From Candidatus Gottesmanbacteria bacterium RIFCSPLOWO2_01_FULL_39_12b (GTDB lineage: Bacteria; Patescibacteriota; Microgenomatia; 2-02-FULL-39-11), in the NCBI GenBank assembly GCA_001780955.1, contig MFJR01000007.1:10950-48380 (forward strand): a stretch of 37,431 bases of DNA. The letters are read 5' to 3'. Below the pieces are notes generated by a model. The model saw only the letters and a program-made list of their open reading frames with translations, made no database searches and had not been told where the DNA came from. A program made the position numbers and the translations under genes. Positions 5,022 through 15,681 of the stretch are shown piece after piece; position 1 is the first letter of the stretch, and every line of letters begins with the position of its first letter.

Positions 5022-5048
5022 CCCAAAGCTGTCTGCTTTGGGTTTTTT
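5022..5048 (+). terminator. Intrinsic terminator hairpin in the leader of the DUF4352-like gene
   Basis: An eight-base perfect stem CCCAAAGC / GCTTTGGG (5022-5029, 5035-5042) with a five-base loop is followed at once by six T residues. It lies between the promoter at 4980-5006 and the ATG at 5056. It could cause transcription attenuation, or act only as a leader hairpin. Confidence 0.65.
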
Positions 5049-5055
5049 CATTCTT

Positions 5056-5673
5056 ATGCCAACAGAAAAAAAATTTCCGGAAACAGAAATGGTCTTATCA
5101 AAATTTACTGTACTAAAAACAGTAATACTCCCTTTTATCTCCAAAAAAAGAAAATTATTGTTGGGGATAGCCGCTATCTTGCTTCTTATAATAGTAGGAG
5201 AAATTTTTCTACGGGCAAGATTCAGTGGAAATAAGGAGGCGGCAAAAACTTTGTCGACCAATGTAAACAAAAGTTATGAATTTACCGCTTTGGACAATCT
5301 GGGCAAAAAAACTACAGGCAAAATAAAGCTCAAAGTAACTACAGCTGAGAAAACAAATCAGGTATTGGTAAAAGACCAGGTATATACTGCTAAAAATAAT
5401 AAATTATTTCTGATTGTTAATCTGGAATTAAGAGACGATGCTACAACTTCATTAAATATTCTCCCGGGAGATTTGGTGCGATTGGCCGTCAACGGAGATG
5501 AGGACACCAAATTTGCTCCCGACCTTCATAACAATCTAGTTCTGGTGGCAGCCATCTCAACCAGACTGGAGCGTGTCGGTTTTGTAATCCCACAGGAAGC
5601 CAAAGACTTCAAATTATTTGTAGGAGAGCTGGAGGGGAAGAAAGAGACCGTTGCAATCAGTTTTCCCTCTTGA
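5056..5673 (+). CDS. Membrane-anchored DUF4352-like protein
   Basis: A 205-residue protein from the ATG at 5056; a TTG at 5038 in the same frame lies inside the terminator stem and is unlikely to be used. A basic stretch (S-K-K-R-K) is followed by one strong membrane segment (L-L-L-G-I-A-A-I-L-L-L-I-I-V-G), then an extracytoplasmic domain of about 150 residues. That domain has alternating strands and a K-L-F-L-I-V-N-L-E-L-R core followed by the pattern of a DUF4352/telokin-like immunoglobulin fold, including a C-terminal K-x-F-x-L-F-V-G-E-L. Such domains are exported or lipid-anchored and have no known catalytic role. No Shine-Dalgarno is visible. The assignment to DUF4352 is moderately sure. 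Confidence 0.7.
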   Translation: MPTEKKFPETEMVLSKFTVLKTVILPFISKKRKLLLGIAAILLLIIVGEIFLRARFSGNKEAAKTLSTNVNKSYEFTALDNLGKKTTGKIKLKVTTAEKTNQVLVKDQVYTAKNNKLFLIVNLELRDDATTSLNILPGDLVRLAVNGDEDTKFAPDLHNNLVLVAAISTRLERVGFVIPQEAKDFKLFVGELEGKKETVAISFPS

Positions 5674-6159: not shown

Positions 6160-7323
6160 ATGAAAAAAATAGCAACATTCGTAGGTGCCGCAGCACTACT
6201 TGCTGCAACTTTAGTGCCGGCTTTTGCCGCTGGTAACAGTTGTACCAATAGCACAACTGGGCCAAGTTCCAACAATACCTGTTCAGTAACGAATACCAAT
6301 ACTGCAACAGTAAATAATGTGAACGACGCCATTATCAGGAATACCGTTACCGCTTTTTCAAACACTGGTAACAATTCTGCTTCCAACAATACGCTGGGAG
6401 GTAATGTAACCACCGGAAATGCGTCACTAAACGCTACAGTTTCTTCTGTTGCAAACGTAAATACAACTAATTTGACAGTTGGTATGGGTTCATCCAGTAA
6501 TTCCGGAATTAACGAAATCACCGGTCCATTTTCCAATAATGATGCGTTCGTCACAAACACACGAACAGCAAATATCTGGAATAGCAATACCGCATCCGTC
6601 AATAATGTTGTCAATGCAACCGCAGATACTGGAAGCAATAGGGCAGACAACAATACCGGTCCAGCAGTCGTAAGGAGCGGATCTGCAAGTTTGGGTGTCA
6701 ACGTGCTTAATCACGTTAACGACAGCCTGACAGCAGTCGCTTTGGGATCTGGTGGAACTGGTAATAACACAGCTGGCAATAGCACAACCGGTCCTTCGTC
6801 AAATAACACTGCAACTGTTACCAATACTTCAGACGCAACGGTTAACAACGTCAACGATTTGATAATTAATAACATAGTTGATGTATTGGCAAACACCGGA
6901 AGAAATAGAGCTTCCAACAATACTTTGGGAGCAGATATTACTACCGGTAACGCAGCCGCAGGAGTTGGAGTGGATAATGAAGGGAATATCAATACCACTC
7001 AAGTGGCGATGGCTTTGGGAGGTTTCTCCCAGGATGCATCAAACGGTGTTACAGGACCATTTTCCAATAATGATACTTTCCTGACCAACACTAATACAAC
7101 ATTAGTGGAAAACTGGAACAACAAATGTCGATCTCATAATGCACCGATCAATTGTGACCCAACTGATTTAGGTGTATTTAATGTAGATAATGACGTTGCT
7201 GATTCAGGAAGTAACATCGCAGACAACAACACTGGTGGTGGCGATGTAATAGCCGGATGGGCATCACTTTGGAAGAATCTGTTAACTCACCTCAATGATA
7301 GTTTGACGGTGATCGGACAGTAA
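6160..7323 (+). CDS. Secreted Asn/Thr-rich NTG-repeat surface protein
   Basis: A 387-residue protein with a clean signal peptide (M-K-K-I-A-T-F, hydrophobic core, cut predicted after A-F-A near residue 23). The rest is four modules of 85-95 residues in A-B-A'-B' order, each opening T-G-P-[SF]-S-N-N (near residues 33, 121, 209 and 297) and carrying later [DN]-[TS]-G-x-N-x-A-x-N-N-T. A modules add T-T-G-N-A-[SA]; B modules end N-D-S-L-T. Spacing of the Asn and Gly turns suggests a beta-solenoid, but that is inference. The last module has an insertion bracketed by two Cys (C-R-S-H-N-A-P-I-N-C), and two further Cys lie near residues 28 and 41. There is no C-terminal anchor, so it is probably secreted or held by other surface proteins. 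Repeats of this kind recur in Microgenomates genomes; no function is known. Confidence 0.8.
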   Translation: MKKIATFVGAAALLAATLVPAFAAGNSCTNSTTGPSSNNTCSVTNTNTATVNNVNDAIIRNTVTAFSNTGNNSASNNTLGGNVTTGNASLNATVSSVANVNTTNLTVGMGSSSNSGINEITGPFSNNDAFVTNTRTANIWNSNTASVNNVVNATADTGSNRADNNTGPAVVRSGSASLGVNVLNHVNDSLTAVALGSGGTGNNTAGNSTTGPSSNNTATVTNTSDATVNNVNDLIINNIVDVLANTGRNRASNNTLGADITTGNAAAGVGVDNEGNINTTQVAMALGGFSQDASNGVTGPFSNNDTFLTNTNTTLVENWNNKCRSHNAPINCDPTDLGVFNVDNDVADSGSNIADNNTGGGDVIAGWASLWKNLLTHLNDSLTVIGQ

Positions 7324-7340
7324 ACTTTATATTCCTTTCT

Positions 7341-7379
7341 TCGGTGGGGATTCATCCTAGGAAGTCGGATCCCCACCGA
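7341..7379 (+). promoter_or_regulatory. Intercistronic hairpin
   Basis: TCGGTGGGGAT (7341-7351) and ATCCCCACCGA (7369-7379) form a perfect eleven-base stem with CCTAGG in the loop. No T tract follows. It lies between the two NTG-repeat genes and could stop 3' decay of the first message or cause partial termination. Confidence 0.65.
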
Positions 7380-7416
7380 GAAGGAGTAGTTTTATTATAG
7401 GTTTTGGATTGAATTG

Positions 7417-9891
7417 ATGAGTAAATTTAAAAGATATTTAAGTCTAATACTGATTTCAACTCTTCTGGTTATAAGAGTTTTTGGTGACGTGGCATTTGTT
7501 TCAGCCCAGTTTGTGCCACCTACAGCGCCGACAGCTCCTACTGCTCCATCCGCGCCGTCTGCACCAGGAAATCCTCCGACAGCTCCTACTGCTCCATCCG
7601 CGCCGAATACGCCTCCGCCTCCGCCTACTGCACCTACTGCTCCAACCGCTCCATCAGCCCCGACAGCGCCTTCCGGACCCTCATCACCGGGAACTCTTCC
7701 TACAGCTCCTAGTGCACCGACAGTCCCCGCGCAGTCAACTTTAGACTCGCTACCCTCCAGCCCACTTGCGCCAACAAGTCCACAACTGCCTACTGGTTCG
7801 GACACTAATTCAGATTCCCAACCTCTGCCTACTGGTTCTTCCGGTCATAGCCTTTCGCCATTGCCAACTTCTGCCACTTTAAATAGCGCTGATCCAGGAA
7901 ATGAGGGAAATAATTCTACAGATGTTAACGATCCGGCAAACCTCAACACAGGCGCTCTGTCTACCAATACAGCCACAGAAACTTTAGAGCAAAAATATGA
8001 GCAGCTTAATAAAAACTTGGCTGATTTGCAAAACAAGATTGATGCGGTAACGGCAACAGGAAATAATCTGGCAAACTTCAATACTTTAAATGGTCAAGTT
8101 TATACAGGGGATGCTTTATCAACTATTAATCAACTGAATAAATTGAATAGCAATATTAGTGGTATGGGTGGGTTTGCGGTATTTAATATTTATGATAATC
8201 ACGCCGGCGATATTGTTTTTAAACTGGCAGATAATAACGTCACCGGGGGGTTTAGTTCTGCTTCGGGCAATGTGTCTAAAAACTCCGATACCGGTCCCGG
8301 ATCTTCCAATCTGGCAGATGGACAAAGCAGTTTTACGGTCAAAGAAGCAAACGGTAACGACGCCAAAATTGTTAATGATATCGTACTGCAGTCTTCAACC
8401 GGAAATAACACCGCTTCGATGAATACAGGAGACGGGATTGTTAAAACCGGTAACGCTACTTCAATCGGAAATGTGGTAAATCTGGCAAATACCAATCTAA
8501 ATGTTAGTAACTGGCTTTTCGGGGTAGTCAATATTTTTGGTACTTTAGCCGGAAATATTATATTACCAAAAGGTTCCTCTACCAGTTCAAATACTTCCAA
8601 CAGTGCCGGGGTTTTATCAGAAAACAGCAATACCGGATTCGGGTCAACCAATAATGCAACTTATGATAACACCAGTTTAGCAACTTTTGATAATGCTAAT
8701 ACCGCAAATATCACGAGTTATGTGGAAGCTTCTGCAAACAGCGGTAATAATTCCTCCTCTACCAATACGGGTGGCGGGAATATCGTTTCCGGCAGTTCTG
8801 ACGTTGCGGTCAGTAACAGTACCATTGCCAATACCAATACCAATAATGAGGAAGGAATAGTGTGGATGGTGATAGTTAACGAAGCGGGCAAGTGGGTAGG
8901 TCACATTATCGGATCTCCATGGGGAGAAAGCAGCGCTTCGAATAGTCTTCCGATCAGTTCTACAACCGGTGGTGCAGGCCAAACGACGTATACGGCGGAT
9001 TCAGTAAATTCTGGTACAGGGGCATTTTCTACAAATGATGCCAGTTATGACAGTTCCACAAATTCTACGGTAACCAATAACAATACAGCAGAAATTATAA
9101 ATAACATCAGTGCCAATGCCGATACCGGAAATAACACCGCAACTTATAACACCGGAACGAGTTCGATTGAGACTGGTAATGCCAAAGTGGGATTAAATTT
9201 AGTTAATATGGTCAATACCAATGTCGTGGCCAAAAAATTTGTGGCCATACTGGTAAATGTTTTAGGAAAATTTTTAGGCGATGTCATACCGCCCGACGCC
9301 CAAAATACAAGTCAGTCTATAAATGATTCTACTAACAGTGTCAGTACGCCAACGCCAACTCTTGCAGTAGAACCAAGTCCTACCCCAACCTTAACGGATT
9401 CAAGGATTGGCGGGATTGAACCAACAAGTAGTCCAACATTGACGCCTGAGCCTGATCCTACAGTGATCCCTTTACCGACGGTTACGCCGGTACCACAGCA
9501 AACGGCTCAATTCCAATATTATTATTACTATTATTATAGCGATAATACTTATCAGAACGATACGACTCAATATTCCCAGGCGGTGCAAAAGGTAGGAAAT
9601 TCGCGACAAAATGTAATCAAACAAAGACAAGTACTTAGGCAGTCATTACCAACGTCTTATGATTTAATTATGCCGACTGTCCCGCCAAAACGTGGTCTGT
9701 TTGTTTCCAAAGCTTTTGCCAAAGCTACAGAATCAAGTCTGGCCGGAATACTTTTGGGAGGAGCCACTTTAAAGGTAAATCAATCCTGGTTATCCGTAAT
9801 TCCTCTGGCTATTTTAATTATAGTACTGCGGAGAAGAAGAAAAATTAATTTTAGCGGATATTTATATAAGATTTTGGAAAAAATACTTTAG
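7417..9891 (+). CDS. Large anchored NTG-repeat protein with Pro-rich stalk
   Basis: An 824-residue protein from ATG 7417; an in-frame TTG three bases earlier is less likely. In order: signal peptide cut near V-S-A/Q-F (residue 30); about 75 residues of T-A-P/S-A-P repeats; a Ser/Thr/Pro linker; a short coiled coil (L-E-Q-K-Y-E-Q-L-N-K-N); four NTG modules beginning near residues 213, 326, 441 and 568, each ending in a hydrophobic hairpin such as W-L-F-G-V-V-N-I-F-G; a PT-rich stalk; seven consecutive Tyr (9517-9537); and a C-terminal membrane segment followed by R-R-R-R-K and a basic tail. The C-terminus has the layout of a sortase substrate, but no clear LPXTG is present. It shares its core repeat with the preceding gene, so the two may form one structure. 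No ribosome site is evident. Confidence 0.75.
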   Translation: MSKFKRYLSLILISTLLVIRVFGDVAFVSAQFVPPTAPTAPTAPSAPSAPGNPPTAPTAPSAPNTPPPPPTAPTAPTAPSAPTAPSGPSSPGTLPTAPSAPTVPAQSTLDSLPSSPLAPTSPQLPTGSDTNSDSQPLPTGSSGHSLSPLPTSATLNSADPGNEGNNSTDVNDPANLNTGALSTNTATETLEQKYEQLNKNLADLQNKIDAVTATGNNLANFNTLNGQVYTGDALSTINQLNKLNSNISGMGGFAVFNIYDNHAGDIVFKLADNNVTGGFSSASGNVSKNSDTGPGSSNLADGQSSFTVKEANGNDAKIVNDIVLQSSTGNNTASMNTGDGIVKTGNATSIGNVVNLANTNLNVSNWLFGVVNIFGTLAGNIILPKGSSTSSNTSNSAGVLSENSNTGFGSTNNATYDNTSLATFDNANTANITSYVEASANSGNNSSSTNTGGGNIVSGSSDVAVSNSTIANTNTNNEEGIVWMVIVNEAGKWVGHIIGSPWGESSASNSLPISSTTGGAGQTTYTADSVNSGTGAFSTNDASYDSSTNSTVTNNNTAEIINNISANADTGNNTATYNTGTSSIETGNAKVGLNLVNMVNTNVVAKKFVAILVNVLGKFLGDVIPPDAQNTSQSINDSTNSVSTPTPTLAVEPSPTPTLTDSRIGGIEPTSSPTLTPEPDPTVIPLPTVTPVPQQTAQFQYYYYYYYSDNTYQNDTTQYSQAVQKVGNSRQNVIKQRQVLRQSLPTSYDLIMPTVPPKRGLFVSKAFAKATESSLAGILLGGATLKVNQSWLSVIPLAILIIVLRRRRKINFSGYLYKILEKIL

Positions 9892-9893
9892 GG

Positions 9894-9905
9894 AAAGGGG
9901 GTGAT
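9894..9905 (+). promoter_or_regulatory. Extended Shine-Dalgarno overlapping the annotated start
   Basis: AAAGGGGGTGAT matches the complement of the 16S tail at all but one position. The GTG at 9901 lies inside it. The codon at the best spacing, eight bases further on, is ACG (9910-9912). An identical block occurs at 11331-11342. Confidence 0.55.
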
Positions 9906-10518
9906 CTTTACGGAAAAGATAAATAAATATTATCGATCTTTTTTCATGTTAACACTATTTAGTGTGGTACTGTACAGATTTATGTTGCCCGGTTTGGTAA
10001 AAGCCGATTGGTGGGACAGGCCGGATTCACGTCCTTCACAGCCCGGTGAACACCGCAGTCTTCCGACGCTACCTCCCGAGCCAACTCTGACGAGTGCACC
10101 TACTGTCACCCAGCCGATTACGCAACCGACTGGTAGTACTGCGCCTTCTGCTACAGTTGCACCTACTGGTTCTATCCATCCTAGTCCGACTGTAACATCA
10201 CAACCGGTCGGCGGGTTACCGACTTCAATACCCACGCCTACTAATGTTGTTTCTGGAGGTACAAGTAACGATGACCCTTGTGCGCCCGGAAAATCTTATA
10301 CCGGTCCATATTGCGGTTGGGCGCCCGGAGTTGAGAGCGGTCAAGGTAACGTACAGTTAGCCCAGAGTGTGGGAGGAGTTGAAGGTCAGCGTGTATTAGG
10401 TCTGTCTAAGACATCCAGTGGAGATTTGGAGCTTTCTGATATAATATTTCTTACTGGAATTTTATGTCTTCTTCTTTACGCCAGGTCAAAACTTATAATA
10501 AATCAGCAATCTCATTAA
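9901..10518 (+). CDS. PT-rich secreted protein, candidate sortase substrate
   Basis: A 205-residue protein with a basic N-terminus (K-I-N-K-Y-Y-R), a hydrophobic signal core ending near V-K-A/D-W-W, and about 85 residues of Pro/Thr/Ser. A small Cys-bracketed patch follows (C-A-P-G-K-S-Y-T-G-P-Y-C), then V-L-G-L-S-K-T-S-S-G at residues 165-174, an acidic D-L-E-L, a membrane segment and a short polar tail with R-S-K. The V-L-G-x-S-x-T motif before a hydrophobic tail resembles sorting signals of PT-rich proteins in CPR genomes, and a sortase gene follows with a 55-bp overlap. The start is uncertain: the GTG at 9901 sits inside the Shine-Dalgarno. It may be the sortase's dedicated substrate. Confidence 0.65.
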   Translation: MIFTEKINKYYRSFFMLTLFSVVLYRFMLPGLVKADWWDRPDSRPSQPGEHRSLPTLPPEPTLTSAPTVTQPITQPTGSTAPSATVAPTGSIHPSPTVTSQPVGGLPTSIPTPTNVVSGGTSNDDPCAPGKSYTGPYCGWAPGVESGQGNVQLAQSVGGVEGQRVLGLSKTSSGDLELSDIIFLTGILCLLLYARSKLIINQQSH

Positions 10519-11117
10519 AAAATATTTTGCGTGATGATAAGAAAAAAATGCGTCTGATTCTTTTAATCAGCGGAATTTTATTGGTGACTTTGAGTTTATT
10601 CTGGCCAAAAAACACTCCAACTGCTGTAAGGCAGACAGACCAACCAGAAATTGTTTCTTTTGCACAGGAACCGGTTATTATAGATAAAAATTTATTAAAA
10701 GAAAGATCAAAAAAGGAAAAGGAAAAACAGCCGCCCGTCAGGATTGTCATTCCGGCACTTGAGATAGACATACCGGTAAAAGAGGCAAAGATTGTAAAGG
10801 GATATTGGGAAGTTTTTACCGATAGCGCGGGTTTTGGCAGCGGTACGGCTTATCCTGAAGAGATGGGTAATCAAGTGGTATTTGCTCACGCCAGAAAAGG
10901 ACTATTCTTACCTTTGAAAAATGCCAAATTGAGACAGGATATCTATATATTCACCAAAGACAAGTGGTATTCCTATCAAATTGAAGATATTAAAGAGGTT
11001 TTACCTTCGCAAACTGAGGTAATTGCACCTTCAAGTGAAAGTATTCTTACTCTTTATACCTGTTCAGGTTTTGCCGACAGTAAAAGACTGATTATCAGAG
11101 CCAAAAAAATCTTATAA
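10464..11117 (+). CDS. Sortase (class D/E-like transpeptidase)
   Basis: A 217-residue protein with one N-terminal membrane anchor (about residues 30-47), a charged linker (K-E-R-S-K-K-E-K-E-K) and a sortase beta-barrel from residue 90. The catalytic residues are visible: His142 in V-F-A-H-A-R, Cys200 in T-L-Y-T-C-S, and Arg208 in S-K-R-L-I-I. Sortases cut a C-terminal sorting signal and join the protein to a cell-wall or pilus nucleophile. The first candidate ATG (10464) overlaps the previous gene by 55 bp and has a weak GGA ribosome site; ATG 10548 would shorten the cytoplasmic tail. Position directly after a PT-rich protein with a putative sorting signal supports a substrate-enzyme pair. 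The class is uncertain. Confidence 0.85.
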   Translation: MSSSLRQVKTYNKSAISLKNILRDDKKKMRLILLISGILLVTLSLFWPKNTPTAVRQTDQPEIVSFAQEPVIIDKNLLKERSKKEKEKQPPVRIVIPALEIDIPVKEAKIVKGYWEVFTDSAGFGSGTAYPEEMGNQVVFAHARKGLFLPLKNAKLRQDIYIFTKDKWYSYQIEDIKEVLPSQTEVIAPSSESILTLYTCSGFADSKRLIIRAKKIL

Positions 11118-11173
11118 CCCCCCCAATTTATTTATTGATCTAGTTCTTTCTACTTCTTTATTTATAACACCAG

Positions 11174-11202
11174 TTGACACTGGAGATAATAGATAATAAA
11201 TT
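11174..11202 (+). promoter_or_regulatory. Promoter of the TasA-like gene leader
   Basis: A perfect TTGACA at 11174-11179 is followed after 17 bases by TAAATT (11197-11202), a 4/6 match to the -10 box; two nearby GATAAT sequences are at poorer spacing. It would start a leader of about 130 bases before the TasA-like gene. Confidence 0.5.
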
Positions 11203-11233
11203 TAGGGGGAGAATTCTGGATGATCGACCGCCC

Positions 11234-11325
11234 GCGGAGGTCAAAAAAAACATGCCTACTACCTCCGTCATAAAAAAAAATAAGATTAATTTTTGCTAAA
11301 CTACCTATTTTCAGGTGGTTTTTTT
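11234..11325 (+). promoter_or_regulatory. Attenuator-like leader with alternative hairpins
   Basis: Hairpin 1 pairs GCGGAGGT (11234-11241) with ACCTCCGT (11261-11268). An intrinsic terminator pairs AAACTACCT (11298-11306) with AGGTGGTTT (11313-11321) and runs into seven T (11319-11325). The segment ACTACCT occurs twice (11258-11264 and 11300-11306), so AGGTGGT (11313-11319) could pair with the upstream copy instead and undo the terminator. Hairpin 1 would block that. The architecture is that of a transcription attenuator; no known riboswitch or leader peptide is recognised. Confidence 0.55.
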
Positions 11326-11337
11326 ATTGGAAAGGGG

Positions 11338-11853
11338 GTGATAAAACTGAATAAAATTTTAACCAGTTTACTCTCAATTGGGGCGGCCAGCACCATTGTT
11401 ACCGCCGCTACCTTTGCGGCTTTTACGGCTTCGGCTTCAAATACAGGGAACGTATTCACATCTGGTACTTTATCTTTAGCTACAACTCCTGCAACAGGAC
11501 TATTTACTGTCCCAAATATGAAGCCAGGAGATAGTATTACTCAGAATTTGACAGTAAACAATACAGGAAGTCTATCATTGGATTTTAATGCTTTATCGAC
11601 AAATGCATCTGGAGATGTAGGATTATATAATGCATTAAAATTAAAGGTTGGTACTACAGGTGGAGGTTCAGATTTATATAATGGTAATTTATCTGCTTTC
11701 ACTGGTTTTATAGGAGGTGCAAGGACTGTAGTTCCATCTGGAACTGATTTCCTATCTTTTACCGTATCATTACCGTCAGAAGTAACTGATGAAGCTTTAC
11801 AAGGAAAAACAACAAACGTGTCTTTTAACTTTAGTGCTACACAAGCAATATAA
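11338..11853 (+). CDS. TasA/camelysin-like SipW-dependent matrix protein
   Basis: About 170 residues. The N-terminus L-N-K-I-L-T-S-L-L-S-I-G-A-A followed by A-A-F-T-A-S-A-S-N-T-G-N-V-F is the typical signal region of TasA/CalY (peptidase M73 camelysin-like) proteins, cut by SipW-type peptidases. The mature part has the family pattern G-T-L-S-L, P-G-D-S-I-T-Q-N-L-T-V-N-N-T-G and a final beta-rich domain. TasA proteins form extracellular fibres in Bacillus biofilms. The GTG at 11338 is embedded in the Shine-Dalgarno AAAGGGGGTGAT (11331-11342); the CTG at 11347, eight bases downstream, is equally plausible and gives the normal family start. A SipW-like peptidase gene follows. Expression is probably controlled by the attenuator-like leader. 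Confidence 0.8.
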   Translation: MIKLNKILTSLLSIGAASTIVTAATFAAFTASASNTGNVFTSGTLSLATTPATGLFTVPNMKPGDSITQNLTVNNTGSLSLDFNALSTNASGDVGLYNALKLKVGTTGGGSDLYNGNLSAFTGFIGGARTVVPSGTDFLSFTVSLPSEVTDEALQGKTTNVSFNFSATQAI

Positions 11854-11859
11854 ATTGAT

Positions 11860-11899
11860 CTTGGCAGCGGATAGCGTTATTGAGCTATCCCCTGCCAAG
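11860..11899 (+). promoter_or_regulatory. Hairpin between TasA-like and signal peptidase genes
   Basis: CTTGGCAG-C-GGATAGC pairs with GCTATCC-C-CTGCCAAG, giving about fifteen base pairs with one internal mismatch. No T tract follows. It may set a higher level for the upstream structural protein than for the peptidase downstream. Confidence 0.6.
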
Positions 11900-11909
11900 A
11901 CGACATGAG

Positions 11910-12458
11910 ATGAAAATTATTTTTGTTCAGGCCAAGAATATGATCTTTGCGACTCTGCTGATAATTCTTGTCTTTATATCCCTGATGTTAATCAGTCAAA
12001 GAGTTGCCTTTTTCGGCTTTTCAAGTTACGTTGTATTGTCTGGCAGTATGCAGCCGGCGATTTATCCCGGGGACGTAATTGTCGTCAAAAAAACAAATTC
12101 TCAACTATTGAACAAAGGAGACGTCGTTTTATTTGAAGATCCGAAAGTTGCCGGGAAAAAGATTACACACCGGATTGTTGAGAATAAAGAAAAAGACGGA
12201 GTCAAAACTTATTATACCAAGGGAGATGCCAATCAGGATAAAGATGATTGGAATATTTCTCAAAACATGGTTTTGGGTAAAGTCGCTTTTACGATTCCTA
12301 AACTAGGGTTTTTGATTACTTTTAGCAAAACCCCCTTGGGTTTTGCCATATTTGTTTTGTTTCCCGGTATGTCAATTATTTTTTCTGAAATAGCTGCCCT
12401 GGTTTTTTACGTAAAAGAATTAGAGGAAAAGGCAAAAAATGTTCAAGTTCTCTCTTAA
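11910..12458 (+). CDS. sipW: SipW-type signal peptidase I
   Basis: A 182-residue protein with an N-terminal membrane segment (about 11-29) and one or two C-terminal ones, as in ER-type/SipW peptidases. Catalytic Ser46 lies in V-L-S-G-S-M-Q-P. The Lys of ordinary bacterial type I peptidases is replaced by His87 (I-T-H-R-I-V), and G-D-A-N supplies the conserved Asp106; this Ser-His-Asp arrangement is the mark of SipW. The enzyme should remove signal peptides from the TasA-like protein upstream and from other module proteins with similar signals. ATG 11910 is chosen over a TTG at 11880 that lies in the preceding hairpin. It overlaps the next gene by 20 bp. Confidence 0.85.
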   Translation: MKIIFVQAKNMIFATLLIILVFISLMLISQRVAFFGFSSYVVLSGSMQPAIYPGDVIVVKKTNSQLLNKGDVVLFEDPKVAGKKITHRIVENKEKDGVKTYYTKGDANQDKDDWNISQNMVLGKVAFTIPKLGFLITFSKTPLGFAIFVLFPGMSIIFSEIAALVFYVKELEEKAKNVQVLS

Positions 12459-13836
12459 AGTATTTTTACTTACAGTTTTGATCGGTACCACTTTTGAATT
12501 GATGGTGGTAGCGGCCTACGGTGCTTTTGCTGCTTCATCTGCAATTCCCGATAATGTTTTTACTACCGGTTTTTGGGCTGCTGTATCTCCCACTCCCTCT
12601 GAAACCCCTACACCTACTCCCAGTCCTACCAATACTCCCACTCCTACCATTACTCCCAGTCCGACGGTGACTCCTACAACCGGTCCCAGTCCTACTCCTG
12701 TTTCCGGACTGGTAGCCTACTGGAAGATGGATGAAGGATCAGGAACTACGGTTACCGACTCTTCAGGTCACGAACATACTCTTACTCTACAGAACTTTGA
12801 TCCCAGTTCAGGCTGGACTCCTGATATACCTGTTACCAGTCTTGTATCTAATACCGGCTCGCTTCTTTTTGACGGTGTAGACGATGTAGGTTTAGCAAGT
12901 GATGATCCCGCTTTTAATCTTACTTCCTCTTTCACTCTGGAAGCCTGGATTAGAGCAGATTCTCAGCCTGGAGATGTTGGTCTTATCTCTAAATTTGATG
13001 GTAGTAATGGTTATCTACTCTATATGGGTCAAACAGGACAAGTCTATAACGTGATAAACAATAACTTGACTAATTTCAATGACGCAGACTTACGTGATAA
13101 CTCCTGGCATCATGCAGCCATGGTCTGGGATGGATCTAGCAGATTTCTCTATGTAGATGGACTGTTAAAAGCAAGTGGATCATGGACAGAAGCGCCTGTT
13201 ACTACAAGCCTTGCTCTAATGGTTGGGAATTATTTCCCGGGAGCTGATATCCCCCGTAACTTCAAAGGCAATATTGATGAAGTGAAGATCTACAATACCG
13301 CCCTTTCCCAGCCAGAGATTATTAATGACGCAGGACTTTCCGGAATCATTCTTCCCCCTTCTCCCACCCCCAGTGAAACCCCTACACCTACTCCCAGTCC
13401 TACCAATACTCCCACTCCTACCATTACTCCCAGTCCGACGGTGACTCCCGTACCTGTGGTTTTAAATGAATTTATGCCTCATCCCACGCCAGGATCAGAT
13501 TGGATTGAGATTTATAATTCATCCGATACTAATCGAAATATCTCCAACTGGACTTTAGAAGATATGGCACAAGTTGATCCGATTATTATAACAATACCCT
13601 CTGATACAATATTAAACACCAATTCTTATATGGTATTGAATGCTGGAAACCGATTAAACAACGATGGAGATACTATCTATTTGAAAAATAACTCAGGAGA
13701 GATCGTTGATCAAAAAACTTACCCACCCCCAAATATAGACCTCAATTTATCTATCGGACGGGATATAGATGGTATAGGTATCTGGAGACAATGCATTAAC
13801 GCAACTCAAAATGCTTCTAACAACGGTAACTGTTAG
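12439..13836 (+). CDS. Secreted LamG plus lamin-tail domain protein
   Basis: A 465-residue protein. The signal region ends A-Y-G-A-F-A-A-S-S and is followed by D-N-V-F-T-T-G, echoing the A-A-F-T-A-S ... N-V-F-T-S-G of the TasA-like protein, so it is probably a SipW substrate too. Then: PT-rich linker (about 50-88); a LamG/concanavalin-A-like domain (about 91-305) with A-Y-W-K-M-D-E-G-S-G, L-E-A-W-I-R and G-N-I-D-E-V-K-I-Y; a second PT-rich linker (about 308-337); and a lamin-tail domain (about 340-455) with V-L-N-E-F-M and D-W-I-E-I-Y-N. LamG folds usually bind glycans. The two linkers contain an identical 75-bp DNA stretch. There is no membrane anchor at the C-terminus, which ends in a small Cys-containing patch. 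Confidence 0.85.
   Translation: MFKFSLKVFLLTVLIGTTFELMVVAAYGAFAASSAIPDNVFTTGFWAAVSPTPSETPTPTPSPTNTPTPTITPSPTVTPTTGPSPTPVSGLVAYWKMDEGSGTTVTDSSGHEHTLTLQNFDPSSGWTPDIPVTSLVSNTGSLLFDGVDDVGLASDDPAFNLTSSFTLEAWIRADSQPGDVGLISKFDGSNGYLLYMGQTGQVYNVINNNLTNFNDADLRDNSWHHAAMVWDGSSRFLYVDGLLKASGSWTEAPVTTSLALMVGNYFPGADIPRNFKGNIDEVKIYNTALSQPEIINDAGLSGIILPPSPTPSETPTPTPSPTNTPTPTITPSPTVTPVPVVLNEFMPHPTPGSDWIEIYNSSDTNRNISNWTLEDMAQVDPIIITIPSDTILNTNSYMVLNAGNRLNNDGDTIYLKNNSGEIVDQKTYPPPNIDLNLSIGRDIDGIGIWRQCINATQNASNNGNC
12600..12674 (+). repeat. 75-bp direct repeat, copy 1 (first PT linker)
   Basis: Identical base for base to 13374-13448. It encodes E-T-P-T-P-T-P-S-P-T-N-T-P and onward. The offset of 774 bp is a multiple of three, so recombination between the copies would excise or duplicate the LamG domain in frame. 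Confidence 0.9.
13374..13448 (+). repeat. 75-bp direct repeat, copy 2 (second PT linker)
   Basis: Second copy of the block at 12600-12674, with no mismatches. Synonymous positions are identical as well, which points to recent duplication or gene conversion. Confidence 0.9.
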
Positions 13837-13847
13837 TTATTATTAAT

Positions 13848-14477
13848 ATGATTATTATAAAAAGAATTATTACCATCACTTTGGCAGTCGTCCTGATACT
13901 TACCGGTTATTATTTTTACTCCCAGAATAAATCGGCCAGTGGTGTTGTTCGCGCTTTTGGCAGATTAAACGTGACTTTTCCGGGCGTGCCAATGTTTTCC
14001 GAAGTTAACTGGTATCCGGGTAAAATCGTTACCCGATCCATACTTGTGGAAAATACAGATCTGCAAACACGGAAAGTAGGTATCAAAGCGGTCAGCATAA
14101 ATGATAATTCCAATCCGTTTTTGGCAGACATCTTAAAAATAATTATTATTACAAACGGGCAAATTATTTACGGAGAGGGTAGTTTAACCGGCAGTAAAAC
14201 TCTGGCCGACTTTTATCGGGAAATTGTCGTCTGGCTGACGGATATAAACAGAAACGAAACGGCAAGTTATGATTTTCGCATCCAGATGGATGCTGGTGCC
14301 ACCAATAACTATCAGGGTAAAAGTACAACCTTTGATTTATTCGTAGGAGCGGACGAGCGAAGCTTTTTAAGCTTTCCAACCATCCGTGCGTTACCTACTT
14401 TTCGAGTATTACCAACGCTTGCTCCTCTTCAGGGTATACGTTCCGCTATGGGTATCAGGTCTTTACCAGACAGATAA
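13848..14477 (+). CDS. Second TasA-like secreted protein
   Basis: A 209-residue protein with a basic N-terminus and one hydrophobic segment (about 5-24), then a beta-rich domain. W-Y-P-G-K-I-V-T-R-S-I-L-V-E-N corresponds to the P-G-D-x-x-x-x-x-[IL]-x-V-x-N block of TasA-like proteins, and S-K-T-L-A-D-F-Y, N-R-N-E-T-A-S-Y-D-F and Y-Q-G-K-S-T-T-F-D-L-F-V-G match the C-terminal part of that fold. The tail repeats L-P-T-x-R/L-x-L-P-T and ends without an anchor. It is probably a minor fibre subunit or adaptor; that is inference. It follows the LamG protein by eleven bases and is likely part of the same transcript. Confidence 0.65.
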   Translation: MIIIKRIITITLAVVLILTGYYFYSQNKSASGVVRAFGRLNVTFPGVPMFSEVNWYPGKIVTRSILVENTDLQTRKVGIKAVSINDNSNPFLADILKIIIITNGQIIYGEGSLTGSKTLADFYREIVVWLTDINRNETASYDFRIQMDAGATNNYQGKSTTFDLFVGADERSFLSFPTIRALPTFRVLPTLAPLQGIRSAMGIRSLPDR

Positions 14478-14526
14478 TCGTATATTTTCTTGATCTTCTT
14501 GCGAAATTTTGCCACAATGATAGTAA

Positions 14527-15417
14527 ATGTATCTTAAAGCCAATAATTTCTTACGTCATTATTTCTATCCCCATGAATCAAATAATTATAAAGCGCGAAC
14601 ACTCCATACATCCGCAATCGTTTTCTATATCACCCTTCTTCTTGTCTTCCAGTTGATACCCGGGTTTATTAAATTTACTCAACCAAACGTTTTAGGTTAT
14701 GCTACAAATATAACTCTTAATTCAGTTTTGGATTTGGTCAATCGGGAAAGAACTAAAAATAATTTAGCTCCTTTGAGTCTTTCACCGCAACTCACTACGG
14801 CAGCGACACAAAAAGCAGCTGATATGTTTACCAAAAATTATTGGGCCCATGTATCTCCTACCGGAGTTAGTCCATGGCAATTTATCACTTCCTCAGGTTA
14901 CTCATATCTATACGCAGGAGAAAATTTAGCCAAAAGTTTTAGTTCTTCCGAGGAAGTTGTTGCTGCCTGGATGAACTCACCAACACACAAGGCAAATATT
15001 TTGAAATCCGAATATAGCGATATTGGCCTTGCGGTAATGAATGGTTCATTAAACGGTGAAGAAACGACTTTGGTAGTACAAGAGTTTGGTACCAAAGTAA
15101 ATAAAGAGCCCATTTCAAAAAAAACCGTTTCAGAAAATGTGAAAGATAATCTAGTTAAAGAAGTGGAGCCAGTGATTCAAACTGGTTCTGTTTCGCAAGC
15201 AGGTGATACGACCGCCAAGGCAGTTTTCCCATTTCGGATTTCTAAAACGATGTCTCTGATAATTACTGAGTTTATGCTGGTTATTTTATTTCTTGATAGT
15301 CTTTATATGTGGAAATACAAAACTTCGAGGCTTAGCAGCCGGAGTTTGGCGCACATTATTTTTTTCCTAAGCCTGATTGGAGCTATAGGTATGACCGGAA
15401 TTGGAGTTGTGCTCTGA
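14527..15417 (+). CDS. Membrane-anchored CAP (SCP/PR-1) domain protein
   Basis: A 296-residue protein with an N-terminal membrane segment (about 28-47), then P-N-V-L-G-Y-A and a CAP domain (about 65-190). The domain shows L-V-N-R-E-R, H107 in Y-W-A-H-V-S-P-T-G, A-G-E-N-L-A, and the closing M-N-S-P-T-H-K-A-N-I-L; these supply the conserved His/Glu/His cavity. A linker and two C-terminal membrane segments follow. Bacterial CAP proteins are extracytoplasmic, and their activity is mostly unknown. The gene is separated from the module upstream by about 50 bases in which I found no convincing promoter. It is probably displayed on the cell surface with the neighbouring proteins. Confidence 0.85.
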   Translation: MYLKANNFLRHYFYPHESNNYKARTLHTSAIVFYITLLLVFQLIPGFIKFTQPNVLGYATNITLNSVLDLVNRERTKNNLAPLSLSPQLTTAATQKAADMFTKNYWAHVSPTGVSPWQFITSSGYSYLYAGENLAKSFSSSEEVVAAWMNSPTHKANILKSEYSDIGLAVMNGSLNGEETTLVVQEFGTKVNKEPISKKTVSENVKDNLVKEVEPVIQTGSVSQAGDTTAKAVFPFRISKTMSLIITEFMLVILFLDSLYMWKYKTSRLSSRSLAHIIFFLSLIGAIGMTGIGVVL

Positions 15418-15423
15418 GATTAT

Positions 15424-15681
15424 ATGCCTAAAAGTATTATACACTTCGTTCATTATCTAAGTTTGATTTTAATTTTTGTGGTCGGAGGATATTTTTTTTA
15501 TTATTTTCGACCTTTTCCCGACAAACAATTTGCAGTAGCTACCGCGGGTGCCATTATTTATATTTTATGGGGAGTAATTCATCATTTAGTTGAAGGTGAT
15601 TTTCATCTCAAAATTATGGTAGAATATCTAGTTATTGCTATTCTTGGGCTTGTGATAGCCCGGGGGGCTATTTTTCGATAA
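15424..15681 (+). CDS. Small membrane protein of unknown function
   Basis: An 85-residue protein with three hydrophobic helices (about 8-27, 37-53 and 64-82) and a central H-H-L-V-E-G-D-F-H motif between helices two and three. I do not recognise a named family. It starts six bases after the CAP-protein stop and ends four bases before rmlA, so it is likely co-transcribed with both. The His/Asp/Glu-rich loop could bind a metal or sit at the membrane face, but nothing in the sequence settles this. Confidence 0.7.
   Translation: MPKSIIHFVHYLSLILIFVVGGYFFYYFRPFPDKQFAVATAGAIIYILWGVIHHLVEGDFHLKIMVEYLVIAILGLVIARGAIFR

Follow-up and report, generated by a model that had tools for sequence, protein, structure and literature searches.

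The stretch of DNA analyzed here, called the window in the following, comprises 37,431 nucleotides from Candidatus Gottesmanbacteria bacterium RIFCSPLOWO2_01_FULL_39_12b (contig MFJR01000007.1; G000:C7:10950-48380 in our numbering), whose genome assembly is 1.27 Mb and 84% complete. It holds a locus of surface protein genes in which two NTG-repeat proteins (NTGA and NTGB), a Pro/Thr-rich predicted sortase substrate (PT) and a sortase are followed by TasA-like proteins with a SipW-type signal peptidase and by a CAP-domain protein. An earlier note on this DNA took these nine genes for one combined sortase plus SipW/TasA module. Translation of the open reading frames (ORFs) places all nine on the plus strand within 9.3 kb, and the gene list was borne out by curated models for the sortase, TasA1, the SipW-type peptidase, the LamG/LTD protein and the CAP protein. 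Two genes have to be added to that list: ORF5038, with which the conserved core begins, and the gene at 15424-15681 (M85), which goes with the CAP gene. The features are as follows, in amino acids (aa) for the proteins and with TM for transmembrane.

5038..5673, plus strand: ORF5038, an exported protein with a single TM segment, which opens the conserved core
6160..7323, plus strand: NTGA, 387 aa, a secreted Asn/Thr-rich repeat protein with a signal peptide
7414..9891, plus strand: NTGB, 825 aa, an NTG-repeat protein with a C-terminal TM helix
9901..10518, plus strand: PT, 205 aa, Pro/Thr-rich predicted sortase substrate
10464..11117, plus strand: sortase, 217 aa, PF04203
11174..11202, plus strand: candidate sigma-70 promoter, TTGACA-N17-TAAATT, between sortase and TasA1
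11293..11853, plus strand: TasA1, 186 aa, TasA/camelysin family with a SipW-type signal
11298..11321, plus strand: terminator-like hairpin with a T-run in the TasA1 leader, a consensus match only
11880..12458, plus strand: SipW-type (endoplasmic reticulum/archaeal-type) signal peptidase, 192 aa, TIGR02228
12439..13836, plus strand: LamG plus LTD protein, 465 aa, PF13385 and PF00932, with PT linkers
13848..14477, plus strand: TasA2, 209 aa, a divergent protein of the TasA superfamily
14527..15417, plus strand: CAP-domain protein, 296 aa, with flanking TM helices, PF00188 (2e-20)
15424..15681, plus strand: M85, an 85-aa membrane protein with several TM segments, constant partner of the CAP protein

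The locus was compared with about 150 related loci, and the counts given for the family rest on 15 genomes (family and order). The order of the core is ORF5038 - NTGA - NTGB - PT substrate - sortase - variable slot - CAP - M85. The run from NTGA to the sortase is uninterrupted in 11 of the 15 genomes; contig ends cut the locus in the remaining ones (G002, G003, G012, G013). The earlier note had held that a scattering of the genes in relatives would speak against a module; NTGA, NTGB, PT and sortase are contiguous, and the SipW and TasA genes lie outside the constant unit. The core is present throughout the family (Gottesmanbacteria-like Microgenomates) and in other Microgenomates. Woesebacteria and related loci share this order (L070-L074, L078, L083, L086, L088, and also L089 and L101), some parts being absent where contigs end. 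An ortholog of ORF5038, which has no Pfam match, lies immediately 5' of NTGA in most core loci of both groups, and the position of CAP after the slot is kept in most core loci. Upstream of the core lie tsaE-, tsaC- and tsaB-like genes in the window's own genome and in L048, and tsaE/tsaB-like genes in L073 and L101 (names given by sequence inspection, not by a family search). These tsaE-tsaB neighbours, common to the four loci examined, point to vertical inheritance of the core.

The sortase scores above the cut-offs of PF04203 (1.2e-19) and TIGR01076. It has the catalytic residues of the superfamily, His142, Cys200 and Arg208 being invariant in the alignment, and a predicted substrate with a sorting motif, a TM helix and a basic tail. 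Among the NCBIfam models it stays under the LPxTATN-type SrtD model (52 bits against a cut-off of 140). The PT protein has an N-terminal ADWWxRP motif and ends in VLGLSKTSSGD followed by a TM helix and a basic tail; GLSxT and SD are invariant among 11 family orthologs. The start of the sortase gene overlaps the PT gene by 55 bp in the window, and the overlap is conserved at about 50-80 bp in the family loci. When the sortases are divided into clades, the gene directly upstream of a core-clade sortase ends in LSxT[SAGH], a TM helix and a basic tail in 29 of 31 cases, and [LY]AxTG endings are found in 19 of 22 neighbours of sortases from the paralogous clade. Among 1581 other proteins the two patterns occur seven and three times, respectively, and none of the seven LSxT cases has the shape of a sorting signal. 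A search of the window genome with the PT signal matched PT itself and nothing else, a search which would miss unlike proteins sharing the motif alone. Among loci with a taxon name, the sortases nearest to that of the window come from Candidatus Gottesmanbacteria, followed by Woesebacteria, Levybacteria and other Microgenomates. In Woesebacteria the LSxTS signal sits on an NTG-repeat protein (367-399 aa), which ties the sortase to NTG display. On the sequence level, the pairing of motif and clade, the single PT match, the Woesebacteria substrate and the gene overlap together speak well for a sortase with one substrate, dedicated to surface display of the NTG type. The own genome encodes two more sortases (G000:C12:70437-70811 and G000:C1:1155-1559); the window sortase is its only member of the LSxTS clade.

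The NTG repeats which the earlier note had seen are real. The pattern TGxNxAxxNT is present in four copies in each of NTGA and NTGB, with 0.02 expected in shuffled sequences, at a spacing of about 88 aa in NTGA and about 114 aa in NTGB. NTGA carries neither a C-terminal anchor nor a sorting signal. NTGB consists of a PT-rich N-terminal stretch, the four repeat domains and a C-terminal TM helix followed by RRRRK. NTGA is 53-67% identical in ten family genomes and about 31% in two divergent ones, and NTGB 45-52% in most of them. The two proteins are paralogous (hhalign probability 99.9), and neither had a match in Pfam, NCBIfam or Protein Data Bank (PDB) searches. The AlphaFold model of NTGA is all-beta and of low confidence, with a predicted local distance difference test (pLDDT) of 50; that of NTGB has 48 overall, and its repeat domains are beta at about 70-84. 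For NTGA the top Foldseek row is CsgA, with an E of 0.04 and a TM-score of 0.05 for a low-confidence model, and this row is not taken as evidence of a curli or other amyloid repeat; Pfam gave no match to curlin-type repeats in the NTG proteins. A proper LPXTG motif was not found in NTGB, and the LPTS about 40 residues before its TM helix varies among the orthologs. Directly before base 1 of the window lie two more small NTG proteins of about 200 aa (L029 9617-10267 and 10295-10900), and most family genomes likewise have such small proteins ahead of the core.

The NTGA-NTGB pair has a wide distribution in other classes of the phylum, from which sixteen NTG loci (L155-L170) come. In these, NTGA and NTGB matches occur together and mostly without a sortase. 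The pair therefore looks like the oldest kernel of the locus, and the sortase link seems mainly a feature of Microgenomates. In one of the loci, L158, a SipW/TasA cassette directly adjoins the pair.

The cassette, in the order TasA1-SipW-LamG/LTD-TasA2, fills the slot between sortase and CAP in four of the 15 family genomes (G000, G003, G004, G008). Elsewhere the slot contains one large LamG protein (G005, G006, G009, G010) or other genes (G007, G014), or is empty (G001); in G014 TasA1-SipW and CAP are found together on a separate contig. A search of the 15 genomes gave no strong SipW match in seven, and in L088, L089 and L101 the cassette adjoins the sortase in inverted orientation. The SipW and TasA genes as a constant part of the module are thus ruled out by the family comparison.

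TasA1 is over the cut-off of PF12389 (3.3e-12) and reaches 17.9 bits with TIGR04088, for which the cut-off is 19. Its family profile matches the B. subtilis TasA structures 5of1 and 8aur (E 2e-11) and also the archaeal bundling pilus protein AbpX (PDB 9sj2, 9rhp). Translation probably starts at a CTG at 11347, which is in frame with the conserved MNKIL start and directly preceded by a strong Shine-Dalgarno sequence (11333-11343). The second of the TasA-like proteins proposed before, TasA2, is weak when taken alone: PF12389 gives E=0.021, below cut-off, it has no direct match in the PDB, and it is recognized by comparison of its family profile with that of TasA1 (hhalign probability 98.3). The peptidase is over the cut-off of TIGR02228 (6e-30), with Ser56 and His97 invariant, i.e., a Ser/His and not a Ser/Lys pair, and its family profile matches human SEC11A/C. 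It does not reach the equivalog model for the B. subtilis-type SipW (NF046067; 110 bits, cut-off 190). The LamG/LTD protein matches LamG (PF13385, 3e-27) and LTD (PF00932, 1e-16). Among the window proteins searched with the TasA1 N-terminal profile its N-terminus is TasA1-like (E=2.5e-4), and from its sequence it is likely a substrate of SipW. No sorting signal was found at the C-termini of TasA1, TasA2 and the LamG protein. SipW-type peptidase genes are carried by 65 of the 187 Microgenomates genomes searched (about one third), and they adjoin TasA-like genes in nearly all loci examined.

Some relatives depart from this composition. In L038 (7004-8020) an LTD-type segment follows SipW in one protein, and other loci have SipW ORFs of more than 330 aa; with such a fusion the peptidase and its likely substrate would be made as a single protein. 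The TasA2 homologs in L035 (5487-6626), L038 (8014-9150), L032 (11018-12028), L082, L088, L089 and L106 continue beyond their TasA-like domain with RTX-like GND repeats. The TasA2 of the window has no GND repeats, which were either lost or never present.

At the junction between the sortase and the slot, the stop codon of the sortase gene is followed after 33-66 bp by an exact TTGACA in eight family loci (the window and seven more), the background rate within 260 bp being 12%. Scans for promoters and terminators overall were not above those of shuffled sequences, and only the conserved position of the TTGACA is used here. CCATCC/GGATGG hairpins like that of the window occur in L032, L035 and L038; Rfam gave no RNA element at the junction, only a sub-threshold match. 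The variable slot, the inversion, the conserved TTGACA and the hairpin point to the cassette as a separate unit of transcription and evolution.

The reading which we consider probable is that of a composite surface locus: a single-substrate sortase core and an independently transcribed TasA1-SipW-LamG/LTD-TasA2 cassette, which constitute two machines. The combined module of the earlier note is then right in that there is a real common surface locus, and it has to be divided into two nested units. The model builds on gene content, conservation, the motif matched to the sortase clade, the catalytic residues and the mobility of the cassette, all read from the sequence. It proposes export via Sec for the PT protein, for NTGA, which would be secreted, and for NTGB, which a membrane helix at its C-terminus would hold. 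The sortase would cleave PT at LSxT|S(G) and join it to a surface nucleophile, and PT would serve as a covalent anchor or linker for a layer of NTG-repeat proteins. SipW would remove the special signal peptides of the cassette proteins, the TasA-like subunits would form non-covalent fibres by donor-strand exchange by analogy with B. subtilis and archaea, and the LamG/LTD protein would probably be an adhesin associated with the fibres. The two machines would have a common chromosomal address and probably a common surface environment, and no common assembly step.

Several points weigh against the composite locus. The sortase falls short of the class models (49 bits against a cut-off of 160 for class E, 39 against 165 for class D), which leaves its class uncertain. 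The models of the NTG proteins are of low confidence, and Foldseek searches with them were uninformative and gave no usable fold. The anchoring chemistry, the surface nucleophile and the NTG layer are parts of the model which we infer. SipW genes and sortases are moreover closer than two unrelated systems should be, so a functional link is possible: both lie within about 10 kb in eight of the 21 genomes of the class in which SipW and sortase each gave a strong match, and of 40 Microgenomates SipW loci from other families, 669 kb in all, 11 hold a sortase within about 10 kb where about two are expected. The probabilities calculated for this excess ignore shared ancestry among loci that are not fully independent, use approximate densities and serve as a guide only. 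The statement of the earlier note that TasA/SipW and sortases usually are separate systems is therefore only partly right.

That the neighbours share nothing except a location, in a generic hotspot of surface genes beside a cluster of sugar and glycosyltransferase genes (15686 onward), is an unlikely alternative. The very variable content of the slot and the nucleotide-sugar and glycosyltransferase genes downstream would fit it. It is at variance with a core order which is constant across families and beyond, with the specific match of motif and sortase, and with the persistence of the NTGA-NTGB pair in other classes without this neighbourhood.

Somewhat less likely still is the one hybrid appendage of the earlier note, in which TasA fibres grow from or carry the NTG proteins and are fixed to the wall at their base by the sortase, via the PT linker. 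All parts lie on one strand within the short distance given above, and SipW cassettes occur near sortases or NTG cores above expectation in several families and, with L158, in another class too. Against this, the cassette is outside the core in 11 of the 15 family genomes, including those without a strong SipW match, and NTGA-NTGB-PT-sortase persists where contigs allow; the cassette can be inverted and has its own promoter candidate, and its TasA proteins have no sorting signal. The argument from proximity is weak because in C. perfringens srtB adjoins sipW-bsaA and yet is dispensable there: deletion of srtB left the BsaA polymer and the pellicle unchanged (PMC7395162). The assembly of TasA/CalY in B. 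cereus is likewise described as sortase-independent (PMC13082335). CAP may be a more usual partner of the cassette than the sortase is, a CAP gene being present in at least 12 of the 40 SipW loci outside the family where about 1.2 are expected. In 12 loci (L113, L119, L122, L124, L125, L127, L130, L135, L136, L138, L144, L149) SipW/TasA is near CAP and an 85-aa membrane protein, often without a sortase.

A fuller version, in which an LSxTS-specific sortase covalently anchors a linker bearing the NTG proteins and also TasA fibres built by donor-strand exchange, so that a covalent base and a non-covalent shaft together serve the attachment of host-dependent bacteria of the candidate phyla radiation (CPR) to partner cells, is speculative and in our view rather improbable; a role in attachment of the anchoring set and the repeat proteins in a probably host-dependent cell is a guess. 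A sortase-assembled covalent pilus with PT or an NTG protein as the polymerized pilin, to which a dedicated sortase beside its own substrate and adjoining repeat surface proteins might lead, is very improbable since Pfam recognized neither a pilin nor a CnaB domain in PT and the NTG proteins (the motif search was not exhaustive), PT is short, Pro/Thr-rich and not immunoglobulin-like, NTGA has no sorting signal, and there is one substrate per sortase.

Returning to the composite locus, its parts can be compared with known systems. The sortase family fam000526 was described as near-ubiquitous in Microgenomates (PMC6744442), and among the matches listed all but one of the 187 genomes of the class have a sortase; the accessible part of that report says nothing of a substrate, an NTG partner or the order of the genes. 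Streptomyces SrtE and other class E/D-type sortases (PMC5148588) share with the window sortase the fold, the TLxTC motif and His/Cys/Arg, and their LAXTG/LPXTA-type substrates share the L[AS]xT signal followed by a TM helix and a basic tail. Unlike them, the window sortase is under the cut-offs of both classes, its clade pairs with LSxT[SAG] and not LAxTG, and it has a single substrate, from an overlapping gene. The cassette resembles B. subtilis tapA-sipW-tasA and B. cereus sipW-tasA-calY (PMC9674648, PMC13082335) in having a SipW-type peptidase beside two TasA-family proteins. It differs from them in the added LamG/LTD protein (or SipW-LTD fusion in relatives), in adjoining a sortase, and in a divergent TasA2 whose homologs often bear RTX repeats; no TapA or CapP was recognized. 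The C. perfringens srtB-sipW-bsaA locus is alike in the sortase gene beside a sipW/TasA-like operon, and the accessible text of PMC7395162 reports no NTG proteins for it.

The sortase and the TasA parts are new members of known families, and what is new is the NTG pair and the LSxTS pairing. The pair and its anchoring set appear undescribed: in the open-access literature we found no paper on this locus (sortase/TasA/camelysin with CPR or Patescibacteria) and none on Microgenomates SipW/TasA genes near sortase or CAP genes, an absence which is not proof. To our knowledge the make-up of CPR surfaces and how partners are held are largely unknown, and attention has mostly been on type IV pili. The present locus, conserved by vertical descent in Microgenomates, combines a sortase, the substrate dedicated to it and a matching sorting motif with an NTGA-NTGB pair that extends to other classes, and it offers specific proteins to label, to express and to seek on cells.

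Downstream of the locus, at 15686-36820 of the window, lie dTDP-sugar and NDP-sugar genes and several glycosyltransferase/PMT-like genes, and ORFs of matching sizes come after M85 in the family loci. Glycosylation of the Thr/Asn-rich proteins is possible.

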